Positions 8,643 to 32,120 of a DNA stretch of 64,000 nucleotides are shown in pieces. This stretch comes from Rhodobacter sp. SY28-1 (GTDB lineage: Bacteria; Pseudomonadota; Alphaproteobacteria; Rhodobacterales; Rhodobacteraceae): NCBI RefSeq assembly GCF_005222785.1, contig NZ_STGH01000001.1, positions 1,302,001-1,366,000 on the forward strand. Direction: 5' to 3'. Made by a program: the position numbers and the translations under genes. The notes under the pieces were generated by a model, which made no database searches, had not been told where the DNA came from, and saw only the letters and a list, made by a program, of their open reading frames with translations. Each line of letters starts with the position of its first letter. Position 1 is the first letter of the stretch.

Positions 8643-9436
8643 CCGAAGGCGAGTGCATCTTCGACGGTGACCTCCTCCGGGCCCGTCTCTGGCTGCCGGA
8701 CCGCCCCACCAGCGCGCTTTACGTCACCTTCCGACAATGGGACCCCGAGCCCGGCCAGTTCGACACCCGGGGGCCGGTCCAGCGCGCCCTGTCGGCGGGC
8801 CTTGCGCATCTGCACGTCCAGAGCCGCTGGAACGACTGGTTCCTGAACGCCGAAACCCCGGCGCTTGAGGCCGCCCTGAGGACGCTTCGCGCCCGCTTCC
8901 TGACCGCGCGCGCCCTCGGCTTTTCCATGGGCGGTTACGCCGCGCTGCGCTTCTCGAAATCCCTCCGCCTCAATCAGGTCCTCATTGTCTCGCCGCAGGT
9001 CTCGCTCCACCTGCCCGGGGAAGACCGCTACCCTCAGGCAGCCCGCTTCGACCCGGTGGCGGGCGACCTGTCAGCCCATGCCCGCCCGGACCTGACGGGC
9101 GTCATGGCCTTCGACCCGACCCACCGGCTCGACCGGCTGCATGCCGAGCGGATCATGGCCCTTCTGCCCGGCATCCAACCCGCCAGGCTATCCTTCGGCG
9201 GCCACCCCGGCACCGCGGCCATCGGCAAGGCAGGCGGCTTCCCCGCCTTGCAACGGCTCAGCCTGTCGTCGCGGCTTGCAGCAAGCGACGTGGTGCTCCT
9301 GCATCGCAGTCTGCGCCGCACCTCTGCCCACTACTGGAGCGAACGGGCAGACCGGCTTTTGCGATGCGGCCGCACGGCCCTTGCCGCCCAGGCCATGGAC
9401 CGGACCGAGGCGCTTGCCGATCCCGCGCAATGGTAG
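8639..9436 (+). CDS. Alpha/beta-hydrolase-like protein downstream of meaB
   Basis: This 265-residue protein uses a GTG start overlapping the meaB stop by four bases. A nucleophile-elbow motif [14 protein letters not shown] places a candidate serine at about residue 96, which suggests an alpha/beta-hydrolase fold. The C-terminal third ([23 protein letters not shown]) is not typical of esterases. No signal peptide is seen. I do not recognise a characterised relative. Its TAG stop (9434-9436) lies inside a REP-like palindrome, so the last residues and stop may be repeat-derived. Confidence 0.7.
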
Positions 9437-9459
9437 GGTGGGCGATCCGCCCACCTTAC
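9433..9459 (+). repeat. REP-like palindrome (GTAGGGTGGGC family), copy 1
   Basis: An imperfect 27-base palindrome: GTAGGGTGGGC, loop GATCC, then GCCCACCTTAC reading outward with a shared C/G boundary. It differs from the reverse complement of the copy at 32094-32120 at a single loop base. Its TAG is the stop codon of the preceding gene. Confidence 0.85.
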
Positions 9460-9491
9460 CTTGCCGTGTGGCGACCCCCGCCCGTCGGTGC

Positions 9492-9520
9492 TTGACGCCG
9501 CCGGGGATTCCCCTTACACG
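9492..9520 (+). promoter_or_regulatory. Probable sigma70-type promoter of rpmB
   Basis: TTGACG (9492-9497), a 17-base spacer and TACACG (9515-9520) lie about 70 bases upstream of rpmB. The -35 element and spacing are good; the -10 is weak, as is common in high-GC alphaproteobacteria. Confidence 0.5.
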
Positions 9521-9590
9521 CCCCCAATCGAATTCGAGGGCTGGGATTCCCCGCCTTCCCCCGCTTTTGACGAATCGAAGGAACACCGCA

Positions 9591-9878
9591 ATGTCGCGCG
9601 TCTGCGAACTCACCGGCAAGGGGCCGATGTCTGGCAACAACATCAGCCACGCCAACAACAAGACCCGTCGCCGGTTCCTCCCGAACCTGAACGAGGTCAC
9701 GCTGATCTCCGACGTGCTCGGCCAGTCGTTCAAGCTGCGCGTCACCGCTGCGGCCCTGCGCTCGGTCGACCACCGTGGCGGGCTTGACGCCTATCTGGCC
9801 AAGGCCAAGGACGACGAACTGTCGGCCGCCGCGCTGAAGATCAAGAAGGACATCGCCAAGGCCCAGGCTGCCGCCTGA
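9591..9878 (+). CDS. rpmB: 50S ribosomal protein L28
   Basis: The 95-residue protein begins [17 protein letters not shown] and continues [16 protein letters not shown], the L28 signature. A SAM-like start region with AAGGA lies about 10 bases before the ATG. It is a monocistronic gene with a candidate promoter at 9492-9520 and a strong terminator at 9897-9935. It forms part of the large ribosomal subunit near the exit of the tRNA site. Confidence 0.97.
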
Positions 9879-9896
9879 TCCTTCGCGATTGCCGTG

Positions 9897-9935
9897 AAAA
9901 GGCCCCGCCTTCGGTTTGAAGGCGGGGCCTTTCTC
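9897..9935 (+). terminator. Rho-independent terminator of rpmB
   Basis: A near-perfect hairpin with arms AAAGGCCCCGCCTT and AAGGCGGGGCCTTT separated by a short CGGTTTG-containing loop, followed by TCTCGTT. It begins about 20 bases after the rpmB stop. Confidence 0.9.
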
Positions 9936-10001
9936 GTTATCGTTCTGCAACACGACCGGAGTTTTCGAAAAGTCCGGACTGGAGCCTTAACAAGCTCGGG
10001 T

Positions 10002-10023
10002 GCGCGTTCTTCGAAGAACGCGC
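10002..10023. repeat. Perfect 22-base palindrome centred on TTCGAA
   Basis: Arms GCGCGTTCTTC and GAAGAACGCGC meet without a spacer. The TTCGAA centre is shared with the double palindrome at 60686-60729 and with a weaker GTTTTCGAAAA at 9961, suggesting one family of intergenic hairpins. Confidence 0.7.
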
Positions 10024-10098
10024 GGTGCCGAACGATCCAAATGTCACTGACGACGCTCTTGTCTGCGAACTGTCCCGCCGTGCAGACTCAGCATCCGG

Positions 10099-10125
10099 GT
10101 AGGGTGGGCGACCCGCCCACCGCCC
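10099..10125 (+). repeat. REP-like palindrome (GTAGGGTGGGC family), copy 2
   Basis: GTAGGGTGGGC, loop GACCC, GCCCACC followed by GCCC. It lies between the rpmB terminator and the 3' end of the convergent small secreted-protein gene, 11 bases from that gene's stop. Confidence 0.8.
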
Positions 10126-10135
10126 GGTCAGGGGA

Positions 10136-10444
10136 TCAGCCGGCGCAATAGGCCTCGGCGGTCTGGCCAAAGCTCTTGTAGCGCTCCCAGAAGGCATCGT
10201 CGGATTTCGACTGCGAGACCCAGGTGGAATGGGCGGCCTCCGGGTCCTTGAAGAACTTCGCCGCCCGCTTCTGATCGCCGCCCGACAGCGTCATGTCCGC
10301 CGCCTGCTGGATGCAGCCGCACAAGCTGCGGTTGCCACCCCGGTCCGACGCCATGCAGGCCCGCTCGATCGGACCCGCTGCCGCGATGCTGGACAGTGCC
10401 GGTAGAAAGGCCGCAGCGGCGGCCAAAAGCGCGATGGATTTCAT
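10136..10444 (-). CDS. Small secreted cysteine-containing protein of Rhodobacterales
   Basis: The 102-residue product starts at 10444 with a clear Sec signal peptide (MKSIALLAAAAAFLPALSSI, cleavage near AAA-GPI). The mature part, GPIERACMASDRGG, then SLCGCIQQAAD and KFFKDPEAAH, ends in EAYCAG and has four cysteines that could pair in the periplasm. I recognise it as a family common in Rhodobacterales that automatic annotation sometimes labels 'arginine transporter'; nothing in the sequence supports transport. The longer in-frame start at 10531 would put 29 charged residues before the signal peptide and was rejected. Confidence 0.8.
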   Translation of the reverse strand: MKSIALLAAAAAFLPALSSIAAAGPIERACMASDRGGNRSLCGCIQQAADMTLSGGDQKRAAKFFKDPEAAHSTWVSQSKSDDAFWERYKSFGQTAEAYCAG

Positions 10445-10681
10445 GTCACTCTGCCTCATTCGCCGGGCACGGAGCGGGTCATCCCCTGACCGCCGCCGGT
10501 CATTTTGTACCTGCCATGATGCCAAGTCCAAATGATTTTTTCAAGCTATGACAGGGGCTTGCGCCAGGTTGGCGGATTTCCGCAACCCCTCGCGGCCCGA
10601 GGTCGAGGCTGCTACAAGATGCAGTGGCAGCACCTTCCGTGCGGGCTGTCCCTTGCCCTCGGACACAGGAACGTGAAACGC

Positions 10682-11332
10682 ATGCCCCATCCGCCCCCCA
10701 GCCCGCGCACCAAGGCCCGCCGCCTGCACGACAAGGCCAGCTACGACCGGGCCGTGATCGACGCAATCCTCGACGCCATGCCGGTCGCCCATGTCGGCCA
10801 TATCGTGGACGGCTTTCCCGTGGTCACGCCGACGCTGCAATGGCGCGAAGGCGACCGGATCTACTGGCATGGCTCCTCGGCCAGCCGGATGCAGAAGCGG
10901 GCGACGGATCGGCAAGTCTGCGTGACCGTCACGCTTCTCGACGGCATGGTCCTTGCCCGCTCCGGCCTCGAACACTCGGTCAACTACCGCTCGGTCATGG
11001 TGTTCGGTCAGGCGGAACTGGTCGAGAGTGCCGCGGCCAAGACCGACCATTTGCGCAGCATGATGGAGCAGATGTTTCCCGGCCGCTGGGATCAGCTGCG
11101 CCCCATCACCGATCAGGAACTCAAGGCCACCCGCATCCTCTCGCTGCCCCTGACCGAGGCTTCGGCGAAGGTTTCCGCCGGCCCGCCCATCGACCTGCCG
11201 CAGGACCAGGCCTGGCCGGTCTGGGCCGGTGTCCTGCCCATCCGACTGGCCGTGGGCCCACCCGAACCCGCCCCCGACCTTGCTCCCGGCCTGCCCGTGC
11301 CCGACCACGCAAGGGCCTATCGCATCGGCTGA
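10682..11332 (+). CDS. Pyridoxamine 5'-phosphate oxidase-like flavin-binding protein (Pyridox_ox_2 / NimA type)
   Basis: A 216-residue split-barrel protein. Characteristic segments are [46 protein letters not shown] and [16 protein letters not shown] followed by NYRSVMVFG. Relatives bind FMN or heme and reduce or sequester small molecules; the substrate here is unknown. The ATG at 10682 has AGGA 12 bases upstream, better spaced than the GTG at 10673. It is divergent from the secreted-protein gene. Confidence 0.85.
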
Positions 11333-11459
11333 TCCCGTCCGCATTGCGCGTCGACGACTTCGTCCCTCCTCGCCCGGGTGCCGCCCCCGCGACGAGGAGA
11401 CGAAGTCGAACGAGGAGCCCCCCTTTCGCGGCCTTGCAGGGCAGGCTATATGCGCCCCC

Positions 11460-13259
11460 ATGATCACGCTCGACCGCATCCGCAATTTCTCCATCGTGGC
11501 GCATATCGACCACGGCAAATCCACCCTGGCCGACCGGCTGATCCAGTCGACGGGCACGGTCGCCGAACGCGACATGCAGGCCCAGCTCCTGGACTCGATG
11601 GATATCGAACGCGAACGCGGGATCACCATCAAGGCCAACACCGTCCGGATCGAATACCCGGCCAAGGATGGCAAGACCTATATCCTGAACCTGATCGACA
11701 CCCCCGGCCACGTCGACTTCGCCTACGAGGTCTCCCGCTCCATGCGCGCCGTCGAGGGTTCGCTGCTGGTGGTCGACGCCTCCCAAGGCGTGGAAGCCCA
11801 GACCCTCGCCAACGTCTACCAGGCCCTCGACGCAGGCCACGAGATCGTCCCCGTCCTGAACAAGATCGACCTCCCCGCTGCCGAACCCGAGCGCGTCAAG
11901 CAGAACATCGAGGACGTGATCGGCCTCGACGCCTCCGACGCCATCCCGATCAGCGCGAAGACCGGCCTCGGCATCCCCGATGTGCTCGAGGCCATCGTCC
12001 ACCGCCTCCCCGCCCCCAAGGGCGACCGCAACGCGCCCCTCAAGGCCATGCTCGTCGACAGCTGGTACGACGCCTACCTCGGCGTCGTCGTCATGATCCG
12101 CATCATCGACGGCGTCGTCAAAAAGGGCGACCGCATCAAGATGATGCAGACCGGCGCGGTCTACGGCATCGACAAGCTGGCCGTCCTGAAACCCCAGATG
12201 GTCGACATCCCTGAACTCGGCCCGGGCGAAATCGGCGTCTTCACGGCATCCATCAAGCAGGTCCGCGACACCAAGGTCGGCGACACGATCACCCACGAAA
12301 AGAAACCCTGCGACGCCCCTCTCCCCGGCTTCAAACCCTCGGTCCCCGTCGTCTTCTGCGGCCTCTTCCCCGTCGACGCCAACGACTTCGAAGCCCTGCG
12401 CGACGCCATCGAGAAACTCGCCCTCAACGACGCCTCCTTCACCTATGAGATGGAGACCTCCGCGGCCCTCGGCTTCGGCTTCCGCATGGGCTTCCTCGGC
12501 CTTCTCCACCTCGAAGTCGTCCGCGACCGGCTGGAGCGCGAATACGACCTCGACCTCATCACCACCGCGCCGTCCGTGGTCTTCAAGCTCCACATGAAGG
12601 ACGGCGAGGTCCGCGACCTCCACAACCCCGCCGACATGCCCGACCTCACCTACGTCGACCATATCGAGGAGCCGCGGATCAAGGCCACGATCATGGTCCC
12701 CGACGAATACCTCGGTGACATCCTGAAACTCTGCCAGGACCGCCGCGGCATCCAGTCGAACCTCACCTACGCGGGGACACGGGCGATGGTCGAATACGAC
12801 CTGCCGCTCGCCGAAGTGGTCTTCGACTTCTACGACCGCCTGAAATCGGTGACCAAGGGCTACGCCAGCTTCGACTACCAGATCAGCGAATATCGCGAGG
12901 ACAACCTCGTGAAAATGTCGATCCTTGTGAACGACGAACCCGTCGACGCCCTGTCGATGATGGTCCACCGCGACCGGGCCGAGGCCCGCGGGCGTTCGAT
13001 GGTCGAGAAACTGAAAGACCTGATCCCCCGCCACATGTTCAAGATCCCGATCCAGGCAGCCATCGGCGGCCGCGTGATCGCGCGTGAAACCCTGTCCGCC
13101 ATGCGCAAGGACGTGACCGCCAAGTGCTACGGCGGCGACGCGACCCGGAAGAAGAAGCTTCTGGAGAAGCAAAAGGCCGGCAAGAAGAAGATGCGCCAGT
13201 TCGGGAAGGTGGAGATCCCGCAGGAGGCCTTCATCTCGGCGTTGAAGATGGATGGGTGA
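11460..13259 (+). CDS. lepA: Translation elongation factor 4 (LepA)
   Basis: The 599-residue GTPase begins with the family N-terminus [20 protein letters not shown], containing the G1 loop, and shows DTPGH (G3) and NKIDLP (G4). A C-terminal LepA-specific domain ends [19 protein letters not shown]. It binds ribosomes and affects initiation or back-translocation. Length equals the family norm. The next gene begins only 14 bases downstream but has very different base composition. Confidence 0.97.
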
Positions 13260-13273
13260 GGGGTGGCCAACTC

Positions 13274-13858
13274 ATGACGATCGAATTGCCTAAAGTCTCC
13301 TTCTCTGAGCTTGAAATCGAGAAGTTCATTCATTCGTCTGAGAACTATCTTCCGCAATATAGATCACTTAGGCTTTTGGGGGCGTCAATTTCAAATGCCG
13401 ACGAGGCAATGTCTCTGGCCTTGGCGGTATATGGCTGGATGCCAACGATTCTTCGGTCGTTGGAAATTTCCAATGAGCAAGTGGAACTAGTTCGGCAGTC
13501 CAAAGACATCGGCTCGGCCGCTTCGGTTGTGCGAGACTTTGCAATACCCCCAGTAAATAATAGCTGGGTCGGAAGCAGCAAGTTCTTGCACTTTCTGAAT
13601 CCTGATTGCTTCCCAATCTGGGATAGTCATATTGCGAGGGCATTCGGATGGGCTCGCCGTGATCAGTACGAATCTTCTTCGCGATACATCGCCTACATGA
13701 TGGCTATGCGTGACTTGCTTCCTTTGTCGGAAGAAAGCACTTCCCAAACCATCAGTCGGATCAAGATTCAGTTTGGTTATGAGATTAGCCCACTGCGAGC
13801 ACTAGAGTTTCTGATCTTCTCCGAATCTCGTATGCGGCATCGAGGGCAGCAAGCGTAG
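13274..13858 (+). CDS. Low-GC hypothetical protein inserted after lepA
   Basis: A 194-residue protein starting at ATG 13274, 14 bases after lepA. The motif SSKFLHFLNPDCFPIWDSHI (about 97-116) recurs, from memory, in uncharacterised proteins scattered across bacteria, often in accessory islands. No signal peptide or membrane span is seen. Base composition is strikingly unlike its neighbours (29 of 60 bases are G or C in 13441-13500, against roughly two thirds elsewhere), which points to recent transfer. The stop TAG is supplied by a REP-like palindrome. I cannot assign a function. Confidence 0.75.
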   Translation: MTIELPKVSFSELEIEKFIHSSENYLPQYRSLRLLGASISNADEAMSLALAVYGWMPTILRSLEISNEQVELVRQSKDIGSAASVVRDFAIPPVNNSWVGSSKFLHFLNPDCFPIWDSHIARAFGWARRDQYESSSRYIAYMMAMRDLLPLSEESTSQTISRIKIQFGYEISPLRALEFLIFSESRMRHRGQQA

Positions 13859-13885
13859 GGTGGGTACCAACCCACCACCCACTAC
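13855..13885. repeat. REP-like palindrome, copy 3, between convergent genes
   Basis: GTAGGGTGGGT, loop, ACCCACCACCCACTAC. The TAG at 13856-13858 ends the plus-strand low-GC gene. The CTA at 13882-13884 is the TAG stop of the minus-strand RelE-like toxin, so a single element closes both reading frames. Confidence 0.8.
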
Positions 13886-14145
13886 CAATAGACCTCACCC
13901 CTCGGCGCGACCCTCACGATCAGCACCACCACCCGGTCCTCCTCGATCTGGTAGATCACCCGCCAGGTCCCGACCCGGATTCGCCACTCGTTCTCCCGGC
14001 CTTCCAGCTTGCGGCACCCCGGCGGCCTCGGGTCATCGGCCAAGGCGTAGATCGCCGCCTGTATCCGCCGCGCCAGGCGCATGTCCTTGATGGCGAGGAA
14101 GTCCTTCTTCCCCCGCCGGTCGAACTCCACCGTCCAGAGCGTCAT
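13882..14145 (-). CDS. RelE/ParE-family toxin
   Basis: The 87-residue protein has the RelE/ParE fold pattern: LAIKDMRLARRIQAAIYAL, then GCRKLEGRENEWRIRVGTWR (core strand with conserved arginines) and VIYQIEEDRVVVLIVRVAPR. Such toxins cleave ribosome-bound mRNA or poison gyrase. It overlaps the antitoxin gene by four bases (ATGA), the usual arrangement with the antitoxin first. Its TAG stop is inside a REP-like palindrome. Confidence 0.88.
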   Translation of the reverse strand: MTLWTVEFDRRGKKDFLAIKDMRLARRIQAAIYALADDPRPPGCRKLEGRENEWRIRVGTWRVIYQIEEDRVVVLIVRVAPRGEVYW

Positions 14146-14417
14146 TCGGCGGCGTGACCCTTGGCCAAATCGGCGAAGACCTCCTCCGCCGAATACCGCT
14201 CGTTCGGGTCATAATCCGGGCGCGCGCGTTCCTCGTCCAGCTGCTTGCGCCAGAACGCATCCTCGGCGCTCTCCATGAACGCAAGATCCTCCATCGTCAC
14301 AATCGCCGCCACTGCTTTGCCGTGCCGGGTGATCGTCACCTGTTCATGCCCATGCTCGACCTGCCCCAGCAGGTCCGCCAGCCGCTCCCGCGCTTCCGAT
14401 ACCGTGACTTCGATCAT
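14142..14417 (-). CDS. Phd/YefM-family antitoxin
   Basis: The 91-residue protein starts MIEVTVSEARERLADLLGQV and continues EQVTITRHGKAVAAIVTMED, the Phd/YefM DNA-binding domain. The acidic C-terminal tail (DEERARPDYDPNERYSAEEV) is the likely toxin-neutralising segment. The start at 14417 was chosen over one 11 codons upstream because it matches the family N-terminus. Antitoxins of this family autorepress; a nested palindrome lies just upstream at 14435-14465. Confidence 0.9.
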   Translation of the reverse strand: MIEVTVSEARERLADLLGQVEHGHEQVTITRHGKAVAAIVTMEDLAFMESAEDAFWRKQLDEERARPDYDPNERYSAEEVFADLAKGHAAE

Positions 14418-14434
14418 CACCGCCCCCCCATTCT

Positions 14435-14465
14435 GTACGAAACGTAACATACGTCATATTCGTAC
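14435..14465 (-). promoter_or_regulatory. Nested palindromic operator/promoter region of the Phd-RelE module
   Basis: A perfect outer inverted repeat GTACGAA (14435-14441) and TTCGTAC (14459-14465) encloses an inner ACGT-AACAT-ACGT. The site is 18 bases upstream of the antitoxin start, where Phd/YefM antitoxins bind. This stretch is AT-richer than its surroundings. Confidence 0.6.
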
Positions 14466-14476
14466 AAAAATCAACC

Positions 14477-14953
14477 TCACCGCACCCACGGCTGCAACGC
14501 CTCCGGCTCCGGCGCACCCTCCTCCGCATACCTCCGCTGCAGCACCTCCTGCATCATCACCCGCTCCGCCTGCACCGGCTTCCCCTCCTCCCCCTCGAAC
14601 CCCGGCTTCGGTCCCTCATAGGCCCCACGGTTCCGGTAATGGGAGATCGTCTCCGCCCCCCGGATCACCCCCGCCAGCCGGGCGTGCATGTAGCTTTTCA
14701 ACACGTCATTGATCCGCGGCCCATAGTCCGGCCCCATCGACCGGAAGAACTTCAGCACATCCGCCTCCAGCCGCAGCGTCACCTTCTCCTTCCCGCTAGC
14801 CGGCCGCTTCTGCGCGATCTCGTGCCACTCCGCCGGGATGCGGCCTGTCATCTCGATGGAGTTATGCAGGTCCCACTCCAGGCGTCGCATCACGTCCATC
14901 ATGTAACTCATCTGCGCCCGCTGCCGGGGCGTCTGCTTTTTCAGGTCGGGCAT
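14477..14953 (-). CDS. BrnA-like (DUF4415) antitoxin-type protein, orphan
   Basis: A 158-residue protein from ATG 14953. The central segment VTLRLEADVLKFFRSMGPDY followed by GPRINDVLKSYMHARL matches the ribbon-helix-helix BrnA/DUF4415 DNA-binding domain. N- and C-terminal extensions (MPDLKKQTPRQRAQMSYMMD and a charged tail) make it longer than the usual 80-100 residue antitoxin. No BrnT toxin lies next to it; the gene before it is the Phd antitoxin. It may regulate another locus. The in-frame upstream start at 15037 would add an Arg-rich, low-probability leader. Confidence 0.7.
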   Translation of the reverse strand: MPDLKKQTPRQRAQMSYMMDVMRRLEWDLHNSIEMTGRIPAEWHEIAQKRPASGKEKVTLRLEADVLKFFRSMGPDYGPRINDVLKSYMHARLAGVIRGAETISHYRNRGAYEGPKPGFEGEEGKPVQAERVMMQEVLQRRYAEEGAPEPEALQPWVR

Positions 14954-15098
14954 GTCCAAGGCTCCTTTGTCCCCACCAAACCACCCAAAGGTTAACGCCC
15001 GCCGTCGCCAGCGCCCCGCCCGACGCAAAGCCGACATATGCCCGACGGATGCCAGACGCTTAACCCCCAGTTAACCAACCTCTGCCATCCTTGCGGCC

Positions 15099-15407
15099 AT
15101 GAAACACCTCATCCCACTGATCCCACTCGTCTTTCTGACAGCCTGCGGAGCCTCCCCCGCCCCCGAATTCATGGGCGCGACCCGTACCGACGTTAACCTT
15201 AACGGGCGGGACTATACGGTGTTCCAAAAGGGGGAGCGGGTAGAGGTCATCCGCCTCGGCTACGCACGCCGGGGGGAGCATCAGGAAATCCGAGCCACGA
15301 TGATCGAACTCATCCCCCGCGTGACCGGCTGCAAGCTGCGGGAAAGCACGCTGCAAGGCGACAGTGGCGAGATGCGGGGTAGCCTCGACTGCCCAAAGCA
15401 GCCTTGA
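15099..15407 (+). CDS. Small lipoprotein
   Basis: The 102-residue product has a lipoprotein signal peptide MKHLIPLIPLVFLTAC with Cys16 at the lipobox (LTAC). The mature 86 residues are basic-acidic mixed with two cysteines (VTGCKL, SLDCPKQ) that could form a disulfide. I do not recognise a family. It ends 49 bases before purC in the same direction and could share its transcript. Confidence 0.7.
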   Translation: MKHLIPLIPLVFLTACGASPAPEFMGATRTDVNLNGRDYTVFQKGERVEVIRLGYARRGEHQEIRATMIELIPRVTGCKLRESTLQGDSGEMRGSLDCPKQP

Positions 15408-15456
15408 CTCATCTGGCAAAACCCCCAAGAAGCAGGCACCGCAACGGGGGCCTGCC

Positions 15457-16422
15457 ATGCGCCAGATCGACCTTTCCCGCACCCTGCCGTATGCCCGTAT
15501 CCCGGAGCTTCCGAACCCCTATTTCGGCAAGGTCCGCGACTGCTATGACTTGCCCGACGGCACGCGCCTCCTGATCTCCTCGGACCGGATTTCCGCGTTT
15601 GATCAGATACTTGCGGTAATCCCCTGGAAGGGTCAGGTCCTGACCCAACTCGCCCGCTACTGGTTCGACCACACCGGCGACATCGCTGCGAACCACGTCC
15701 TCGGCTACCCCGATCCGAACGTGGTCCACTGCCAGCGCGTCACCATCCTGCCGGTCGAAATCGTCGTCCGTGGCTACCTTGCGGGCACGACCTCGACCTC
15801 GATCCTGACCCAGTACAAGACCGGCGCGCGGACGATGTACGGCCACACCCTGCCGGACGGACTGCGGGACAACCAGGCCCTGCCGCAGGCCATCATCACC
15901 CCCACCTCGAAGGCCTTTGACGGCGGCCATGATGAGCCCCTGACGGCGACCGAGATCATCTCGACTGGCCTGTTAACCAGAGCCCAATGGGACGAAGTCA
16001 GCGCCAAAGCCCTGGCATTGTTCGCCAGAGGCCAGGAAATGGCACAAAAACAAGGACTTACCCTTGTAGACACCAAATACGAGTTCGGCACCGACGCCGA
16101 GGGCAACATCCTCCTCGCCGACGAAATCCACACCCCCGATTCCAGCCGCTACTGGATCGCGGAAGGCTATGAAAACGCCCTGAAAACCGGCACGAGACCC
16201 CCCAGTTTCGACAAGGACGTCATCCGCTCCTGGGTCGTCGCGCGCTGCGACCCCTACAAGGACCCGGTCCCAGAGATCCCCTTGGAAATGATCGAAAAAA
16301 CCGCGAAGGTCTACATTGAAGCCTTCGAAAAAATCACCTGCCAGCCCTTCATTCCGGACACCTCCGGGGATACGCCCCTGGACCGCATCCGAACCAAACT
16401 AACGCCGTTCTTCACCGCCTGA
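15457..16422 (+). CDS. purC: Phosphoribosylaminoimidazole-succinocarboxamide synthase, long form
   Basis: A 321-residue SAICAR synthase, with FGKVRDCYDL, LLISSDRISAFDQILAVIP, RGYLAGTTST and DEIHTPDSSRYW as family landmarks. It catalyses the ATP-dependent ligation of aspartate to CAIR in purine synthesis. At 321 residues it is of the longer type that resembles yeast Ade1 rather than the roughly 240-255-residue bacterial form. Rhodobacterales commonly also carry the short paralogue near purQ/purL; none is in this window. The ATG at 15457 was chosen because homology begins there. Confidence 0.93.
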   Translation: MRQIDLSRTLPYARIPELPNPYFGKVRDCYDLPDGTRLLISSDRISAFDQILAVIPWKGQVLTQLARYWFDHTGDIAANHVLGYPDPNVVHCQRVTILPVEIVVRGYLAGTTSTSILTQYKTGARTMYGHTLPDGLRDNQALPQAIITPTSKAFDGGHDEPLTATEIISTGLLTRAQWDEVSAKALALFARGQEMAQKQGLTLVDTKYEFGTDAEGNILLADEIHTPDSSRYWIAEGYENALKTGTRPPSFDKDVIRSWVVARCDPYKDPVPEIPLEMIEKTAKVYIEAFEKITCQPFIPDTSGDTPLDRIRTKLTPFFTA

Positions 16423-16466
16423 CCTGTTTGCGCTAACAGTACTCCGACAAAAGGGGGGGACAAGAC

Positions 16467-17390: not shown

Positions 17391-17830
17391 GAGCGGTTCT
17401 CCAGCGGGTCACCGAGGCCCGCGTTCACGTCGATGGCGCCCTGATCGGCGAAACGGGGAAGGGCTTCCTGATCCTGGTCTGCGCGATGGGCGGGGATACC
17501 GAGGCGCAGGCCGAGAAGCTTGCGGCCAAGGTCGCCAAGTTGCGGGTGTTCAAGGACGATCAGGGCAAGATGAACCTGTCGGTCCGCGACATCGGCGGCA
17601 GTGCGCTTGTGGTCAGCCAGTTCACCCTTGCCGCCGACCTGCGCGGCAATCGGCCCGGCTTTTCTACAGCCGCGCCCCCAGCAGAGGGCGAGCGGCTGTA
17701 TCGCCACTTCAGTCAAGCGCTTGAAAAGGAAAGCGTTCCGGTTGCCAACGGCCAGTTCGGGGCCGACATGGCCGTCAGCCTGGTGAATGACGGGCCGGTG
17801 ACCATCTGGATGGACACCGACGACCTGTAA
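17387..17830 (+). CDS. dtd: D-aminoacyl-tRNA deacylase
   Basis: The 147-residue protein is full length and carries both active-site motifs: SQFTL (77-81) and NDGPVT (134-139; usually NxGPVT). The GTG start overlaps the kinase stop (GTGA, 17387-17390). Dtd removes D-amino acids and glycine mischarged onto tRNAs. It is convergent with a secreted-protein gene three bases away. Confidence 0.95.
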
Positions 17831-17833
17831 GCC

Positions 17834-21139: not shown

Positions 21140-21189
21140 TCGGCCACCTCCACGGTCAGCCACAGAATACCATCGTCGGCCCTTTACGA

Positions 21190-24897: not shown

Positions 24898-25673
24898 GCC
24901 TGGTCTGGCTGGACGACCTCCGGCTGAACGCCGAACTGACCGGCCCCCTGACCGCGCAACCCCTGGTCCTGATCCACGGCCTCGGCCTTGATGCCCGGGT
25001 CTGGGACAGGATCGCGCCCGGTCTGTCCCGGCACCGCGTCCTGCGCCTTGACCTGCGCGGCCACGGCATCTCGGACACGCCTGCCCCACCCTATGCGATA
25101 GGCGCGATGATCCGCGATGTCGAACGGCTGATCGACCATTTCGCTCTGAAGGATGCGGTCGTGCTTGGGGCAGGCGAGGGCGGGTTGATCGCGCAAGGGC
25201 TTGCCGTCAAACGCCTTGACGTTGTCCGTGCCCAGGTCCTGACAGGGTCCGCAACCCGCTTTGCCAATCCTTCGGTCTGGGAGACCCGGCTCGGTCGCCT
25301 GCGCCAACACGGCGCCGACTTGGACGCCGAATGTGCCGGTCTTTGCGGCCCAAGATGGCGGACGTCGTCGGTGCTCGACACCGTCCGGACGATGCTCGCC
25401 ACCACCCGCCTGGACGGCTGGACTGGCTTTGGTGCAGCCGTCTCGACAGCGGACTTCTACCAGACCACCGCCACGCTGCGCCTTCCGACTCTGGTCCTTG
25501 CAGGTGCCGAAGATCGCAAGACCCCGCCCGACCTGCAACGCGAACTGGCCGACCTGGTGCCGGACGCCACCTTCCATCTGATCCGCGGCGGAAGCCATCT
25601 GTCGATGCTGACTGACCCCGACGGCTTCTTTGATCCGCTGCACGGCTTCCTGATCCGGAAGGGGCATGTCTGA
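24894..25673 (+). CDS. Alpha/beta-hydrolase fold protein lacking the nucleophile serine
   Basis: A 259-residue protein resembling 3-oxoadipate enol-lactonase-type hydrolases: oxyanion region VLIHGLGLDARVWD, RLDLRGHGISDTP, acid AGAEDRKTP and histidine GGSHLSMLTD. At the elbow, the expected G-x-S-x-G reads G92-A-G94-E-G96: the serine position is glycine (GGC at 25173-25175; AGC would be serine). Acid and histidine remain. It may be a catalytically dead or repurposed member. It is translationally coupled to the dehydratase gene. Confidence 0.83.
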   Translation: MSLVWLDDLRLNAELTGPLTAQPLVLIHGLGLDARVWDRIAPGLSRHRVLRLDLRGHGISDTPAPPYAIGAMIRDVERLIDHFALKDAVVLGAGEGGLIAQGLAVKRLDVVRAQVLTGSATRFANPSVWETRLGRLRQHGADLDAECAGLCGPRWRTSSVLDTVRTMLATTRLDGWTGFGAAVSTADFYQTTATLRLPTLVLAGAEDRKTPPDLQRELADLVPDATFHLIRGGSHLSMLTDPDGFFDPLHGFLIRKGHV

Positions 25674-25855
25674 ATTTGAAGTTTTGGCATGTCAGAAGCT
25701 CGCTCTACGTCAAACAAAGTCATCTCAATTGACCTGATCGAACATCAACGTCTGCCAAAGGCACAAAAACCCGTCGTTGGCCCTATCCCATCCGCGTCAT
25801 GATCTGTCGCAGATGAAGGGTTGATGCGCCCCCGACCTCCCTAGCTTTCTCTTCG

Positions 25856-25895
25856 ACAAATATTCCGCGGGGGCGTGGGGGTGTGAAACCCCCAC
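25856..25895. repeat. Intergenic element with ATATTCCGCGGGGG motif and GTGGGGG/CCCCCAC hairpin
   Basis: CAAATATTCCGCGGGGGCG is followed by a hairpin with arms GTGGGGG (25875-25881) and CCCCCAC (25889-25895). The reverse-strand motif resembles the GCGGGAGTATTTGGGA stretch at 57268-57283. Such phrases are, from memory, common between Rhodobacterales genes. The rest of the gap 25674-25922 is AT-richer and holds nothing else I recognise. Confidence 0.5.
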
Positions 25896-25922
25896 TCCTC
25901 GGTCAGCCAGAGGGGACGGCCC

Positions 25923-27161
25923 ATGAAACTGAAGGACCTCGAACTCTTCGTCGTTGCCCCCCCGTTCCCCGGATGGGGCGGACGCTACTGGATCTTCCCG
26001 AAGCTGACCACCGACACCGGGATCGTGGGTTACGGCGAATGTTACGCCTCTGCGGTCGGCCCCAAGGCAATGCAGGCCGTCATTGAAGACGTCTTCGAGC
26101 GCCACATGGCGGGCGAAAACCCCGAAAACATCGAGCTGATGTTCCGCCGCGCTTACTCCGCAGGCTTCACCCAGCGGCCGGACCCGACCGTCATGGGCGC
26201 CTTCGCGGGGCTGGAGATCGCCTGCTGGGATATCCTTGGCAAAGCGCGGAACCGTCCGGTCTATGCCCTTCTCGGCGGCAAGATGAACGACCGCATCCGC
26301 AGCTACACCTACCTCTACCCCGAACCGGGCCGCGAATCGGCCGAGTTCTGGGTCGATCCGGATGCCGCTGCCGAGGCCGCGGTGCGCTTCATGAACCTGG
26401 GCTTTACGGCGGTCAAATTCGACCCCGCCGGCCCCTACACCATCCGCGGCGGCCATGAACCCGCGATGTCCGACATCACCCGCTCCATCGCCTTCTGCAA
26501 GGCGATCCGCGAAGCCGTGGGTGACCGCGTCGACCTTCTGTTCGGCACCCACGGCCAGTTCACCACCCCCGGCGCGATCCGCATGGGCCGCGAGTTGGAA
26601 CCCTACAACCCGCTCTGGTACGAAGAACCGATCCCGCCGGACAACCTGCTGGAATTTGCCGAGGTCGCAAAGTCGGTCCGCGTCCCCCTTGCCACGGGCG
26701 AACGCATGACGACCAAGGCCGAATTCGGCACCCTCCTGCGCGCCGGGGGCGTCAAGATCCTGCAGCCCGCCCTTGGCCGAGTGGGGGGAATCTGGGAGGC
26801 GAAGAAGATCGCCGCCATGGCCGAGATCTTCAACGCCGAGATGGCCCCCCACCTTTACGCAGGCCCCGTCGAATGGGCCGCCAACGTCCACTTCGCCGCC
26901 TCGATCCCGAACCTCCTCATCGCCGAAACCATCGAAACCGGCGGGGCCTTCCACCAGAAGCTCATCAAGAACTCGATCAAATGGGAGGATGGCTACATCC
27001 TGCCCCCCGAAGCCCCCGGCCTCGGCATCGACTTCGATGAGGACGTCGCCCGCGCCCACCCCTATACCGGCCCGGGTCTGCACCTGCAGATGCAGGAGGC
27101 GCCATGTGACTACCGCCACGGCAACCGCTTCGAAGGTGGCGCTCCTTCCGCGAAGACCTGA
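25923..27161 (+). CDS. Mandelate racemase/muconate lactonizing enzyme family protein (enolase superfamily)
   Basis: The 412-residue protein has an N-terminal capping domain and a (beta/alpha)7-beta barrel. Likely key residues include Lys in GFTAVKFDPAGP, metal ligands in DLLFGTHGQFT, WYEEPIPPDN and ATGERMTTK, and a general-base His in EMAPHLYAGP. Members abstract a proton alpha to a carboxylate; sugar-acid dehydration or cycloisomerisation is the likeliest use here. No transporter is adjacent. A strong GAGGGG site precedes the ATG at 25923. Confidence 0.87.
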   Translation: MKLKDLELFVVAPPFPGWGGRYWIFPKLTTDTGIVGYGECYASAVGPKAMQAVIEDVFERHMAGENPENIELMFRRAYSAGFTQRPDPTVMGAFAGLEIACWDILGKARNRPVYALLGGKMNDRIRSYTYLYPEPGRESAEFWVDPDAAAEAAVRFMNLGFTAVKFDPAGPYTIRGGHEPAMSDITRSIAFCKAIREAVGDRVDLLFGTHGQFTTPGAIRMGRELEPYNPLWYEEPIPPDNLLEFAEVAKSVRVPLATGERMTTKAEFGTLLRAGGVKILQPALGRVGGIWEAKKIAAMAEIFNAEMAPHLYAGPVEWAANVHFAASIPNLLIAETIETGGAFHQKLIKNSIKWEDGYILPPEAPGLGIDFDEDVARAHPYTGPGLHLQMQEAPCDYRHGNRFEGGAPSAKT

Positions 27162-27179
27162 CCACGCATCCGTGGCAAC

Positions 27180-27212
27180 GCCGTCCGAGTGGCTCGATGC
27201 CACGAGGACGGC
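27180..27212. other. Stable hairpin with tandem GA mismatch, beside tRNA-Arg
   Basis: GCCGTCC, GA, GTGGC, loop TCGAT, GCCAC, GA, GGACGGC: two perfect stems separated by a symmetric GA/GA internal loop. It sits between the 3' ends of the convergent enolase-superfamily gene and tRNA-Arg. No T-tract follows on either strand, so it may be an unconventional terminator or processing structure. Confidence 0.5.
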
Positions 27213-27228
27213 TCGCTGTATGAAGAAA

Positions 27229-27305
27229 TGGCGGGCCCAGAAGGACTCGAACCCTCAACCTCGGACTTAGAAGGTCCTTGCTCTATCCAGTTGAGCTATG
27301 AGCCC
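27229..27305 (-). tRNA. tRNA-Arg (anticodon UCU)
   Basis: Read on the minus strand, a 77-base cloverleaf: acceptor GGGCTCA/TGGGCCC, D-stem GCTC/GAGC, anticodon loop CTTCTAA with anticodon TCT, T-arm GAGGG-TTCGAGT-CCTTC, discriminator G and an encoded CCA end. Pair 27-43 is an A-G mismatch; the other stems are good. It decodes AGA (and AGG by wobble), codons that are rare in this high-GC genome. Confidence 0.95.
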
Positions 27306-27336
27306 GCGCCCGGACCTTTTGGGCCAAGCGCACGGG

Positions 27337-27801
27337 TCAGGCAAGCACCTTCGTCATGAAGATCGAGTTCGGATCGTCCCAATAGCCCTCGAAGGGTGGA
27401 CATTCCACGAAGCCCGCCCGGTCATACAGAGCCCGCGCGGCGATGAAGGTCGGCTGCACTCCCGTCTCCAGCGACAGCCGCGTGAACCCGTCCTTCCGAG
27501 CCTCGGCCAGCAGATGCTCCAGCATCGCCTTCGACAGCCCGCGTCCCCGCGCTTCGGTCAGGACGTGCATCGACTTGATTTCGGCATGCGTCGCATCGAT
27601 CCGCTTGTAGGCGCCCATCGCCAGCGGTGCACCGTCCTCGCGCAGCACGAAGAAGCGGATTCCCGGGGCCGCCAACTCGCCCTTGTCCATCATGTGGATC
27701 GACTCGGGCGGAGTGTCGGCATGCATGTCGGCGGTATGACGCTGAAACAGCAGCTCCAGGTCGGGGGTCAACGGGTGTTCTTCGGCAATTGCCCAGGACA
27801 T
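27337..27801 (-). CDS. GNAT family N-acetyltransferase
   Basis: The 154-residue protein has the acetyl-CoA binding motif A: IKSMHVLTEARGRGLSKAML (R/Q-x-x-G-x-G/A variant RGRGLS), then LSLETGVQ and ARALYDRAGF (motif B). It resembles the YjaB/PaiA-like small-molecule acetyltransferases. The acceptor is unknown. It directly follows the NDUFS4-like gene, with no intervening base between that stop and this start. Confidence 0.87.
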   Translation of the reverse strand: MSWAIAEEHPLTPDLELLFQRHTADMHADTPPESIHMMDKGELAAPGIRFFVLREDGAPLAMGAYKRIDATHAEIKSMHVLTEARGRGLSKAMLEHLLAEARKDGFTRLSLETGVQPTFIAARALYDRAGFVECPPFEGYWDDPNSIFMTKVLA

Positions 27802-28113
27802 TCAGTGCGTCCAGGCGCCCTTGCGGTCGGTGGCGAAGTTCTCGCCATAGCCGCGGGGCCGGATCACCGCCTTGCGCGGCTTCGGCTCCACCACGTCGAA
27901 CGCGATGCCCTTCTCGGCCGCATAGGCCTCGGCCGCCTCGCGGGTTTCGAACCGCAGACGCACCTGGGACTGTGTGTCGGTGGACGAGGTCCAGCCCATC
28001 AGCGGATCAACCTCGCGTTCGGATGCGGGGGCGAACTCCAGCACCCACTGGTGGGTCTTGGCGGTCCCCGACTGCATGGCGGTCTTGGCTGGCTGGTAGA
28101 TGCGGGCGCGCAT
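27802..28113 (-). CDS. ETC complex I subunit, NDUFS4-like
   Basis: The 103-residue protein starts [16 protein letters not shown], has [29 protein letters not shown] and ends [18 protein letters not shown], which matches the alphaproteobacterial homologue of mitochondrial NDUFS4 (18 kDa accessory subunit of NADH:ubiquinone oxidoreductase). In mitochondria it aids assembly of the peripheral arm. It lies outside any nuo operon here, as is usual in this group. Confidence 0.9.
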
Positions 28114-28347
28114 GGAAGGCTCCTTCGGACGTGGCCTTCGTTATTCCGAAGCTTTGCGGAAAGCGCAAGCGCGAGATTGCGGGATGAAAGGACTGCCGGC
28201 CAGTGTCATGGAGTGTGGGTGGGGTGGATCTGACGCTGACCGGCAGGTTCAGTTGCTGCTTGCTCGATCATCATGGCCGATGCCGTCACTCAAATCAACC
28301 AGAAGTTGTATTTTCGGATGAAGATTTCGTTTACCACTGTCGCTGGT

Positions 28348-29208
28348 TCACCCGTTCGCCCGACCCAGGCGCAGGATCTGGTACCTGTTGTAGGTCTTGA
28401 ACGCCTCCGAGGTCCGGGTGGTGCCGGTCAGCCGCTGCATCAGGTTGTCGCGCCGTTTCTTCGACAGGAACAGGCTCAGCACCCGCGCCAGCGCCCAATG
28501 CGCCATCGGTTTCTTGGCGTGGATCTCGTCCGAGACGCGGGTCACCCCGTGGCCCAGCACGTTGAACAGCCGCTGCTCAAGATCGATCGAGGGCGCGACG
28601 GCCTCGGTGATGTCCTCTTCCGCCTCGATCGCAAAGCCCGACGGCGGAACCGCTTCGCGGAACACGGTGACGCGATGGCCGCCGCCCGGCTGCGGGCCAT
28701 GAACGTGCCGCCCCTGGTAGGCCTCGGTCCGGAAGCAGTCGGCAATCAGGATCTTCCCATCCGGCGCCAGAAGTCGGGCGCATTTCGGCAGGCTTTCGGT
28801 CAGCGGAATGTACTGGAAGCTTTCGGAAAACAGACACAGGTCGAACGGTCCCTCGCCCTGGAAGGCCTCGAACGTGCATTCATGCACCCGCGCGCCCTTT
28901 GCCGTATCCCGGCAACGCGCGGCCAGGAAGGCCGACGGGACCACGATGTCGACCGAATGTCCCAGCGCCAGCAGCTTCTTCGCGGTCTCGCCGGCGCCGC
29001 CACCGATGTCCAGGATGCGCAGAGGGCCTTCGGGCAGGTAGCCGAACAGCTTGGACGAGTAGTTGTCCTGCGCCGCCCGCAGGTTGCCCGCCGTCACCTC
29101 AAGCCCCGTCCACAGCCCGTAGTGCAGGTTCTCGGCCCCGGTCAGCCAGCGGATGAACGCCAGCCCCACATCCAGCCCCACGGCCCGCGTATCGATTTTC
29201 TCAGCCAT
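28348..29208 (-). CDS. SAM-dependent methyltransferase
   Basis: The 286-residue class I methyltransferase has the SAM-binding motif LRILDIGGGAGETAKKL, motif II-like VDIVVPSAFLAA and FDLCLFSESFQYIPL. An N-terminal extension (ENLHYGLWTG) resembles enzymes that methylate small molecules or lipids. Substrate is unknown. The gap 28114-28347 upstream of the NDUFS4-like gene carries no recognisable feature. It is divergent from uvrB across 142 bases. Confidence 0.85.
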   Translation of the reverse strand: MAEKIDTRAVGLDVGLAFIRWLTGAENLHYGLWTGLEVTAGNLRAAQDNYSSKLFGYLPEGPLRILDIGGGAGETAKKLLALGHSVDIVVPSAFLAARCRDTAKGARVHECTFEAFQGEGPFDLCLFSESFQYIPLTESLPKCARLLAPDGKILIADCFRTEAYQGRHVHGPQPGGGHRVTVFREAVPPSGFAIEAEEDITEAVAPSIDLEQRLFNVLGHGVTRVSDEIHAKKPMAHWALARVLSLFLSKKRRDNLMQRLTGTTRTSEAFKTYNRYQILRLGRANG

Positions 29209-29350
29209 ATCTCACCTCTGGTGGGCGAGCCTTAGCCGCTTACCGCCGGTACGGCAACGGTTTCACCCATCCACGCGGATCACCGCTTGAACTGGAACAA
29301 AAACAGATCAAATCTGTCCTGCCCTCCCCGACTCGCGAAAGCCGTGCCCC

Positions 29351-31534
29351 ATGCCGCACAACAACGCCAATGCCGTCACCGAACGCCCCGATGTCCTGAC
29401 CAAGCCCAAGCTGGAAGGCGGCCGCCGTTTCGTGATGTCGACGCCCTTCCAGCCGGCGGGCGATCAGCCGACCGCGATCAAGGAGCTGACCGCCGGGGTG
29501 AACGCAGGCGAACGCGATCAGGTCCTTCTGGGCGCGACCGGCACCGGCAAGACCTTCACCATGGCCAAGGTGATCGAGGAAACCCAGCGCCCCGCCATCA
29601 TCCTGGCGCCCAACAAGACGCTGGCCGCCCAATTGTATGGCGAATTCAAGGGCTTCTTCCCCGAAAACGCGGTGGAATACTTCGTCAGCTACTACGACTA
29701 CTACCAGCCCGAGGCCTATGTCGCCCGGACCGACACCTATATCGAGAAGGAATCCCAGATCAACGAACAGATCGACCGGATGCGCCACTCGGCCACCCGG
29801 GCGCTTCTGGAGCGTGACGACGTCATCATCGTCGCCTCCGTCTCCTGCATCTACGGCATCGGCTCGGTCGAGACCTACTCGGCGATGACGGTCGACCTGG
29901 TGGTCGGCCAGCTTTACGACCAGCGCAAGGTGATGGCCGACCTCGTTGCCCAGCAGTACCGCCGCCTGGAAACTGCCTTCCAGCGCGGGGCGTTCCGGGT
30001 GCGGGGCGATTCCCTCGAAGTCTGGCCCGCCCACCTGGAAGACCGCGCCTGGCGGTTCAGCTTCTTTGGCGAGGAGTTGGAGTCGATCACCGAATTCGAC
30101 CCGCTGACCGGCGCCAAGACCGACAGCTTCAAGCAGATCCGCATCTACGCGAACAGCCACTACGTCACTCCGCGCCCGACGCTGCAGCAGGCGATCAAGG
30201 GCATCAAGGATGAGCTTTTCCACCGGCTGAAGCAGTTGCAGGAGGAAGGCAAACTGCTGGAAGCCCAACGCCTTGAACAGCGCACGAATTTCGACCTGGA
30301 GATGCTGGAGGCGACGGGCAGCTGCGCCGGGATCGAGAACTACTCGCGCTACCTCACCGGTCGCGCGCCGGGCGAGCCGCCGCCGACGCTGTTTGAATTC
30401 ATCCCCGACAACGCCATTGTCTTTGCTGATGAATCCCACGTCTCGGTCCCCCAGATCGGCGGCATGTACAAAGGTGACTTCCGCCGCAAGTTCACGCTGG
30501 CCGAACACGGCTTCCGTCTGCCGTCCTGCATGGACAACCGCCCCCTCAAGTTCGAGGAATGGGACGCCATGCGCCCGCAATCGGTGTTCGTAAGCGCGAC
30601 GCCGGCGGCCTGGGAGATGGAGCAGACCGGCGGCGTCTTCACCGAACAGGTCATCCGCCCCACGGGTCTTCTCGACCCGCAGGTCGAAATCCGCCCGGTG
30701 GAGATGCAGGTCGACGACCTGCTGGACGAGATCCGCAAGGTCTCGGCAAAGGGCCTGCGCACCCTCGTCACTGTGCTCACCAAGCGCATGGCCGAGGACC
30801 TGACGGATTACCTGCACGAACAGGGCATCCGGGTGCGCTACATGCACTCCGACATCGACACCATCGAACGCATTGAAATCCTGCGCGACCTCCGCCTCGG
30901 GGCCTTCGACGCTCTGGTCGGGATCAACCTCCTGCGTGAAGGCCTCGACATCCCGGAATGCGGGCTGGTGGCGATCCTCGATGCCGACAAGGAGGGCTTC
31001 CTGCGGTCGGAAACCTCGCTCATCCAGACCATCGGTCGCGCGGCGCGGAACTCCGAAGGCCGGGTCATCATGTATGCCGACCGGATCACCGGGTCGATGG
31101 AACGCGCGCTGGCCGAGACGAACCGGCGGCGTGAGAAGCAGATGGCCTACAACGTCAAGCACGGCATCACGCCCGAGACGGTGAAGAAGAACGTCGAGGA
31201 CGTGCTCGCGGGCCTCTGGCAGGGCGACACCGACCTGTCTCGCGTGACGACCAAGGTCGACAAGCCCATGGTCGGCCAGAACCTTGCGGCCCATCTCGAC
31301 GCGCTGCGCACCCAGATGCGCAAGGCGGCAGAGAACCTGGAGTTCGAGGAAGCCGCCCGTCTGCGGGACGAGGTCAAGCGGTTGGAAGCAGTGGAACTGG
31401 CCGTCGCCGACGACCCCTTTGCCCGGCAGGAGGTCATCGAGGAGGCGGTGACCGAGGCGGTGAAGATGGCTGGCCGGAGCACGGCCGGGCGGGCAGGGCA
31501 GCGTGGTGGGAAGCGGTCGCGACGCGGAAGATAA
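29351..31534 (+). CDS. uvrB: Excinuclease ABC subunit UvrB
   Basis: The 727-residue protein has Walker A GATGTGKT (61-68), the beta-hairpin [18 protein letters not shown], helicase motifs including DESHVSVPQ and QTIGRAARN, and a C-terminal UvrC-binding UVR motif ([20 protein letters not shown]). It loads onto damaged DNA in nucleotide excision repair. The upstream region has TTGAACTGGAACAAAAACAG but no convincing alphaproteobacterial LexA box. The TAA stop is the first base triplet of a REP-like palindrome. Confidence 0.97.
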
Positions 31535-32064
31535 GGGCGGTGGGCAAACTGCCCACCCGACGCGACGTGTCGTAGGGTGGGCGATTCGCCCACCTTCGCC
31601 CTTATGTCGCGATGAATGGTGGAAAACGGCCAGTCTTCTGCCCGCGCGACCAGACCATGCCGTACCGGATCGGACAGGCAATGCTCTACCGCCCGGCGCC
31701 GCTCTGCCTCATCGCGGATCATGTGCTCCCAGAACCGGCGCTGCCAAAGGCCAGCCTCACGCTTTTGGACCATGCTGCGCGACTGCAGGCCCCTGAGGCC
31801 TGTCGCCTGCGTAAAACGTGCCTTGAGCTTCTGCCATCGACGGGAAAAGTCGGCGTCCCCTTCGGGCAAAGTCCAGACCGCGTGAATGTGGTCCGGCAAG
31901 ACCACCATCGCGTCGCAGTGGATCGGATGTTCCGCTGCGGTGGCCCGGTAGGCGTCACGCAGGAGGTCGATCCGGTCACACAGGACGGTCGAGCCGCGTT
32001 CTACGAAATTTACGGTGAAGAAGTAGGTGGCACCCGGAACGCGCAAGCGGAGGTAATTCGGCAT
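31147..32064 (-). CDS. REP-associated tyrosine transposase (RAYT), apparently degenerate
   Basis: From ATG 32064 the protein starts [20 protein letters not shown] and has the HUH motif LPDHIHAVW (His59, His61) and [13 protein letters not shown], typical of Y1 transposases linked to REP elements. In the helix that normally carries the catalytic tyrosine (N-Y-x-x-x-N-P-V in relatives) it reads EHCLSDPV: residue 128 is His (CAT, 31681-31683), one transition from Tyr. After about residue 155 (TIHRDIRA) the frame runs through both flanking palindromes and into antisense uvrB, giving 305 residues instead of about 150-200. The gene is bracketed by REP copies. It probably no longer transposes. Confidence 0.72.
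31532..31604. repeat. Inverted doublet of REP-like palindromes (BIME-like), copies 4 and 5
   Basis: Copy 4 (31532-31561) runs TAAGGGCGGTGGGC, loop, GCCCACCCGAC. Copy 5 (31572-31604) runs GTAGGGTGGGC, loop, GCCCACCTTCGCCCTTA. Copy 4 aligns to the reverse complement of copy 5 apart from a three-base gap and loop changes, so the pair is head-to-head and could fold into one cruciform. The uvrB TAA stop is at the left tip. Confidence 0.85.
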
Positions 32065-32093
32065 AGCGTTGACCTTGAAGGATTTCCCCGAAA

Positions 32094-32120
32094 GTAAGGT
32101 GGGCGGACCGCCCACCCTAC
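32094..32120 (-). repeat. REP-like palindrome (GTAGGGTGGGC family), copy 6
   Basis: On the minus strand GTAGGGTGGGC, loop GGTCC, GCCCACCTTAC. It is identical to the copy at 9433-9459 except for one loop base. It lies seven bases after the stop of the minus-strand gene at 32128-32415 and 30 bases upstream of the RAYT start. Confidence 0.85.

Follow-up and report, generated by a model that had tools for sequence, protein, structure and literature searches.

Stop codons in the heads of a GTAG-type repeat family of Rhodobacter sp. SY28-1 and its associated RAYT genes

How does a dispersed repeat come to lie exactly on the stop codons of the genes around it, and what becomes of the proteins that those genes encode? 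The question is raised by a 64,000-nucleotide (nt) stretch of Rhodobacter sp. SY28-1 (contig NZ_STGH01000001.1, positions 1,302,001 to 1,366,000), called the window below, in which a preliminary description placed six palindromes at 9433, 10099, 13855, 31532, 31572, and 32094. All six are present (the core of the fourth lies at 31539-31557), and they are repetitive extragenic palindromes (REPs) of the GTAG superfamily. We propose, as the probable explanation of their placement, that these REPs were multiplied by a REP-associated tyrosine transposase (RAYT) encoded beside uvrB and that in-frame heads were tolerated at gene ends as stops.

The REP family of the window genome

The published architecture of REPs is a GT(A/G)G head joined to a GC-rich hairpin (PMC2817692, PMC3686654). 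The first window copy (9433-9459, plus strand) follows this plan, with a GTAG head, the palindrome GGTGGGC-GATCC-GCCCACC (core 9437-9455), and a terminal TTAC. Throughout the 4.28-Mb window genome (G000; the window and the fetched stretches together have a GC content of 65.8%), matches to the strict pattern GTAGGGTGGGC-loop-GCCCACC number 40 versus 0 for its reversed control, where a copy bearing GTAG at each end counts twice, and the core GGTGGGY-loop-RCCCACC occurs at 45 places versus 3 for the reversed pattern. The 11-mer alone, with two mismatches allowed, occurred in the window about as often as expected by chance (23 versus 22.4), and so the paired arms are what matters. A GTAG or GTAA head, the latter a variant of the published one, stands at at least one end of 39 of the 44 cores examined (L050:13426, near a contig end, was left out), and the window copy at 31539 is among the five headless cores. 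Nearly all headed sites (37/39) fall between called genes. Membership in the GTAG superfamily is thus evidenced by the head, a foldable GC-rich palindrome, many dispersed copies, and a RAYT that is flanked by REPs and linked to their copy number, although 45 cores are fewer than the more than 100 copies usual for REPs (PMC2817692).

Relatives have been described elsewhere. The GTAG superfamily of Di Nocera et al. 2013 (PMC3733652) resembles the window REPs in its GTAG head, GC-rich hairpin, position mainly downstream of genes, and many copies near or overlapping open reading frames (ORFs), but Rhodobacter and Paracoccus are unmentioned in the main text of that paper. The Haemophilus influenzae REP, GTAGGGTGGGCTTcAGCCCACC (Nunvar et al. 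2010, Table 1, PMC2817692), shares its head and all seven stem bases with the window REPs; its loop is shorter, however, whereas 15 of the 37 usable sites here carry GTAG or GTAA at both ends. Among the matches listed, we found no description of this REP family in Rhodobacteraceae in the open-access literature.

GC-rich hairpins after genes might also be ordinary intrinsic terminators, and one window copy (32101-32117, minus strand) satisfies a loose T-tail rule. The other five window copies fail this rule, and there is no T-run signal, as terminator-like sites in two scanned regions do not exceed shuffled sequences (2 versus 3.1 and 1 versus 0.8). Moreover, a common head, a common stem, and linkage to a RAYT are foreign to terminators. 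We consider this explanation very unlikely.

Stop codons and REP heads

The preliminary description held that, at 9433 and at 13855, the upstream gene has its stop codon in the head, as the TAG of GTAG, and this is borne out, with less certainty for the second gene. In the first case, TAG 9434-9436 ends a plus-strand gene of 265 amino acids (8639-9436). In the second, TAG 13856-13858, within the head of the third copy (13855-13876, plus strand; GTAG followed by GGTGGGT-ACCA-ACCCACC, core 13859-13876), ends an atypical ORF that the gene finder did not call and that matches DUF6308 at 26.2 bits, versus a Pfam cut-off of 27.3. A further claim, that the TAA of uvrB forms the left tip of a copy, does not hold, as the TAA (31532-31534) belongs to no REP head and lies 4 nt ahead of the core at 31539.

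Genome-wide counts uphold the idea that stop overlap exceeds chance. As a null model, each core was slid within its own spacer in 20,000 trials per genome, for G000 and for a congener, G001, that was sampled at 41 loci (40 regions drawn from its 81 strict matches in the order of the list, plus L195); headless cores and, in each genome, two headed sites in or overlapping called genes were left out. The 37 usable headed sites of G000 lie in 18 tandem, 18 convergent, and 1 divergent spacers, and 1 of 51 sites in G001 is divergent; the copies are thus located 3' of genes. In G000, 15 of 54 stop-facing ends are at zero gap to a TAG or TAA (8 GTAG and 7 GTAA), versus a null mean of 4.74 and a maximum of 12, so that none of the 20,000 trials reached the observed value. 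The corresponding count in G001 is 13/81, versus 3.90 expected (maximum 10), and again 0/20,000 trials reached it. The exact coincidence of stop and head is about threefold over expectation, and the excess at stops is genuine.

Start-facing gaps at the usable sites are at least 16 nt in G000 (20 ends) and at least 31 nt in G001 (21 ends). Gaps of 0 to 15 nt make up 40/51 assigned gaps in G000 and 50/83 in G001. The premise that REPs usually lie some distance after genes needs qualification in the light of published counts: PMC12306157 (2025) finds 446/4,072 of its REPs no more than 15 nt from a stop, and an earlier E. coli study cited there proposed that 260/496 REPs act in translation near the stop, which makes the position of REPs shortly after stops a known feature. 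The exact overlap has also been noted, since PMC3733652 states that GTAG termini often supply a TAG stop to flanking ORFs. The parts of that paper examined contain neither a null model nor a comparison of orthologue stops, and RAYT stops are not counted there. Stop overlap by GTAG heads is therefore already known, and its single-sentence mention in 2013 now has numbers, a null model, and orthologues; the addition made here is the frequent hairpin-head stop of the RAYT gene itself, described further below.

Two smaller observations concern spacing. Copies with two heads might have been favored between convergent genes, but no clear difference was found (8/18 convergent versus 6/18 tandem in G000; 13/31 versus 7/19 in G001). 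Separately, REPs recur 11 to 13 nt after the stop at orthologous gene ends of G001 and G025 (L123, L125, L148, L173, L176, L177, L182, and L184), and the G001 gap distribution also peaks at 12 to 13 nt.

Orthologous gene ends

One interpretation in the preliminary description was that REP insertions close reading frames, and it suggested aligning orthologues that lack the repeat to see whether their C termini are longer. This was done for uvrB and for every zero-gap gene except the DUF6308-like one at 13855 (14 of 15), using gene ends from eight congeners; one of the genes was also compared with its counterparts on three named contigs. Among the resulting 95 rows, 70 lack an intact REP and 25 have a REP near the stop. 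The REP-free C termini are not generally longer: the length is the same in 42/70 and within 3 residues in 64/70, and no row is shorter by more than 3. The case for truncation, i.e., for new, earlier stops made by insertions inside frames, comes from the 6/70 rows that are longer (by 4 to 51 residues), three of which belong to a single genome, G002. Rows with a REP near the stop have the same length in 17/25 cases, with the others ranging from -4 to +7. REP-free orthologues end at nearly the same length, and host genes have therefore not been cut short; for the 14 genes tested, C-terminal lengths contradict truncation, which we regard as very unlikely.

The stop letters do follow the REP head while the protein stays unchanged. 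At the seven positions where the window genome has a TAA in a REP head, the orthologue rows have TAG or TGA in 47/55 cases and TAA in 8/55. At L059, the repeat is the whole spacer between convergent stops (TAA-[19-nt core]-CTA); in a relative (L171), the same convergent gene pair has touching stops, TGA and then CTA, and no REP.

The other interpretation offered was that stop sites are targets, meaning that the RAYT or its ancestor inserts REPs beside a pre-existing GTAG or GTAA, or at C|T in the complement of TAG. At two gene ends (L171; L140 and L141), relatives have touching or overlapping convergent stops, with no REP and no room for one, and the gene already ends in TAG, but the TAG of a decayed REP would be indistinguishable from this. 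TAG is the stop in 35/70 REP-free rows versus 61/326 genes away from REPs in G000, with a Fisher P value of 1.8e-7 that overstates the evidence because the rows share genes and species (14 genes; eight genomes, one gene plus three named loci) and the background comes from one genome. Also, the TnpAREP enzymes studied so far cut at C|T, one of them at C|A too, and guidance of site choice by GTAG was demonstrated for one such enzyme (PMC8266576). Nevertheless, the rows counted as REP-free include visibly decayed REPs, with hairpins directly after the TAG (L072, L178, and L192), and so the TAG may be a footprint; furthermore, 7 of the 15 zero-gap stops are TAA, precisely where most orthologues have another stop. 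The excess of TAG fits pre-existing TAG targets and footprints of decayed REPs equally. Insertion polarity, if read from the C|T dinucleotide at junctions, leaves two-headed copies without an orientation. Overall, we see targeting as a possible but tentative explanation.

Functional upkeep, in which termination of translation or the 3' ends of mRNAs would be controlled by the hairpin at the stop, as reported for E. coli REPs that lie near a stop (within 15 nt), would account for the frequency of gaps of 0 to 15 nt. It is also consistent with RNA folding of the six window copies in five stretches, with z scores from -1.19 to -6.18 that lie below -3 in 4/5, and with gene ends where several species have a REP (L045m, for example, in G001, G019, and G025). 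The strongest fold belongs to the first copy (9425-9465; -29.9 kcal/mol, z of -6.18), and the weakest belongs to the third (z of -1.19). However, the elements are dispensable, as congeners have anywhere from 0 to 143 strict matches and most orthologue rows have no intact REP, and the E. coli precedent is known via the citing paper, PMC12306157. We judge such upkeep to be rather unlikely as the reason for the placement.

In the REP-poor genomes G003 and G004, other, partly imperfect GGTGCGC-like hairpins stand right after the TAG at equivalent gene ends (L116, L128, and L160). These look like sites reused by different hairpin families.

The uvrB-linked RAYT lineage

The window encodes a RAYT core domain at 31600-32064 on the minus strand (NF047646, 165.5 bits; cut-off 80), between the REP cores at 31576 and 32098 and next to uvrB (29351-31534, plus strand; NF003673, 1058.8 bits). 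Matches of at least 68% identity, among the 22 genomes with a match, define a lineage with 13 members in the 32 genomes of the genus. In a FastTree tree, these 13 group as one clade (local support of 0.92), and uvrB lies beside the RAYT in 10 of them; the stretch fetched for each of the other three showed no uvrB. Strict REP matches number 9 to 143 in the 13 lineage genomes and 0 to 42 in the 19 others (Mann-Whitney P of 3.3e-6). REP numbers follow this one uvrB-linked RAYT lineage. The lone outlier among the nonlineage genomes is G022, with 42 matches, the next highest having 15. In the G022 assembly, which has about 170 contigs, no RAYT of the uvrB-linked lineage was found.

Whether the window RAYT still works is another matter. 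It aligns to E. coli TnpA_REP (PDB 4er8) with 131 bits, over residues 2 to 154 of the 155 given, and keeps the HUH motif (PDHIHAVW in the translation), although no Pfam family matched it at an E value of 0.001. The catalytic tyrosine was not found, as a histidine occupies the column of Y115 of 4er8, a residue whose replacement in Y115F served as the catalytic mutant of E. coli TnpA_REP (PMC8266576). By sequence, this protein is a RAYT, but its status as a working enzyme is doubtful. It has probably lost cleavage activity and probably no longer moves the REP family of the window. The tyrosine is absent in 6/13 lineage members, the window's included (histidine in four and phenylalanine in two), and yet the genomes concerned (L329 to L331, L338, and L339, plus the window) retain 9 to 81 strict REP matches. 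Loss of the tyrosine alongside many REPs means either that the loss is recent or that REPs have another mover.

Two known systems help to place this lineage. The E. coli REPtron (PDB 4er8; PMC8266576) likewise has a REP-flanked RAYT with an HUH motif, but the window RAYT has histidine for Y115, the window REP stem is without the E. coli bulge, and in many Rhodobacteraceae RAYTs the stop codon lies in a hairpin head. The IS200/IS605 elements (PMC8266576) share the HUH tyrosine transposase ancestry, hairpin ends, and a tetranucleotide beside the hairpin. Unlike them, the window lineage stays by uvrB in most of its genomes, and there is no sign of the gene moving.

A second RAYT in the window genome (L047:3750-4307, plus strand) has hairpins of a different type next to it, and its coding region contains, as read by eye, a pair of inverted GTAGGTCGGGG-type hairpins in frame. 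RAYT matches in several congeners exceed the domain length by an amount similar to that of this second RAYT.

Stop codons of RAYT genes

The RAYT genes themselves often end in a hairpin head. Under a strict rule (a GTAG or GTAA stop and a perfect stem of at least 6 beginning 0 to 1 nt later), 17/27 loci of the genus and 14/27 loci from other genera of the family qualify (31/54 together), all being the best-scoring loci returned by the searches and related by descent. In contrast, the rule is satisfied by 1/24 loci from other families of the phylum (2/27 counting family members) and by 3/324 host genes not near a core. Loci without a recognizable frame were dropped (2/29 in the genus set, 2/29 in the phylum set, and 0/27 in the family set). 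When the rule was relaxed and the loci were chosen more narrowly, the counts were 14/18 for the genus, 12/23 for the family, 4/28 for the phylum, and 5/324 for host genes. The stems at these stops vary (GGTGGGT, GGTGCGC, GGCGGGG, GTCGGGG, and others), while the TAG is constant. REP placement right after rayt stops has been published (PMC2817692), and in a figure legend of PMC3733652, REPs overlapping transposase genes at the 3' end are labeled 3'ov; we found no description of the family-wide pattern of RAYT stops in the open-access literature, among the matches listed.

Both RAYTs of the window genome fail the strict rule, the second because its TAG is followed by a stem with one mismatch and the window RAYT because its frame runs on. 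Of the 12 other lineage members, 8 end in GTAG (immediately followed by an intact hairpin in 6 of the 8) and 4 end in TGA. The equivalent stop position in the window lies in the flank of the fourth REP copy (31535-31561, minus strand; core 31539-31557), which reads GTCG on the minus strand, with TCG in place of the TAG; its left flank, GGGC, comes straight after the uvrB TAA, and GTAG or GTAA is found at neither end. The frame stays open to 31147. Before reaching that point, it passes through the fifth copy (31572-31594; GTAG head on the plus strand, core 31576-31594), whose in-frame translation on the minus strand is the VGESPTLR tail of the window RAYT. A VGESPTLR-like, REP-like C-terminal stretch is present in 10/13 lineage members, including the window's. 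The frame over 31147-31600 (minus strand) crosses two REPs and runs antisense to the end of uvrB.

We tentatively raise the possibility that, in Rhodobacteraceae, REPs are dispersed copies of the 3' boundary of the RAYT gene, starting at its own stop codon. If so, each new copy would come with a stop codon already built in, on one strand or on both, which would explain both REPs exactly on host stops and the retention of TAG in heads while stems change. GTAG would then be fixed by selection on the RAYT reading frame and not just by enzyme recognition. The pattern of RAYT stops offers a testable reason for the strong conservation of GTAG.

Proposed in-frame tolerance at gene ends

Multiplication by the uvrB-linked RAYT, with tolerance of in-frame heads, would work as follows. 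The REP head doubles as a stop codon, so a copy landing at or in a host stop in the right frame would leave the protein intact and be tolerated, while copies in other frames or inside genes would be purged. In tight convergent pairs, the repeat could become the entire spacer, as the comparison of L059 with L171 suggests. The window RAYT is probably cleavage dead, and the family would therefore now be mostly inherited and decaying, with the stop codon retained because the gene needs it.

Several points weigh against this explanation. We infer in-frame tolerance, no copy having been caught while being purged. Coding frames also meet headed cores in other ways: the window RAYT reads through one; in G000, L037 sits inside a called ORF, close to where that ORF begins, and L042 covers the start of a called gene; and in G001, L241 and L257 overlap called genes. 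Genes were called with a home-made codon model, for which long ORFs served as the training set, and three genes were added by hand. The overrepresentation of TAG in REP-free orthologues is unpredicted by pure tolerance without a footprint or a target preference. Moreover, RAYTs without the tyrosine coexist with 40 to 81 strict matches in G000, G001, G013, and G019, and the hairpins behind other RAYTs are no more than candidate REPs.

The comparison with orthologues shows that a repeat can spread onto stop codons and leave the proteins as they were. Within one genus, the loss of the tyrosine also gives a natural series of RAYTs, some seemingly functional and others probably dead, along which the decay of REPs can be traced.

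Other features of the window

The gene ending in the head of the first copy (8639-9436) has no Pfam or NCBIfam match at an E value of 0.001. Its top named matches, at 68 to 72% identity, are from Rhodobacterales, Rhodobacteraceae, and Tabrizicola metagenome-assembled genomes, and its orthologue in G019 likewise terminates at a REP head. The sixth copy (32094-32120, minus strand; core 32098-32116) lies upstream of the RAYT start, with heads of GTAG on the minus strand and GTAA on the plus strand and an RNA fold z of -4.02. As the preliminary description stated, its reverse complement differs from the first copy by one loop base. The second copy (10099-10121, plus strand; GTAG head, core 10103-10121) lies 14 nt past the TGA of a minus-strand gene (10136-10444). 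Beside the third copy is a gene for a ParE-like toxin (13882-14145, minus strand; PF05016), the stop of which is 5 nt from the core at 13859 and the upstream end of which is overlapped by a small gene.

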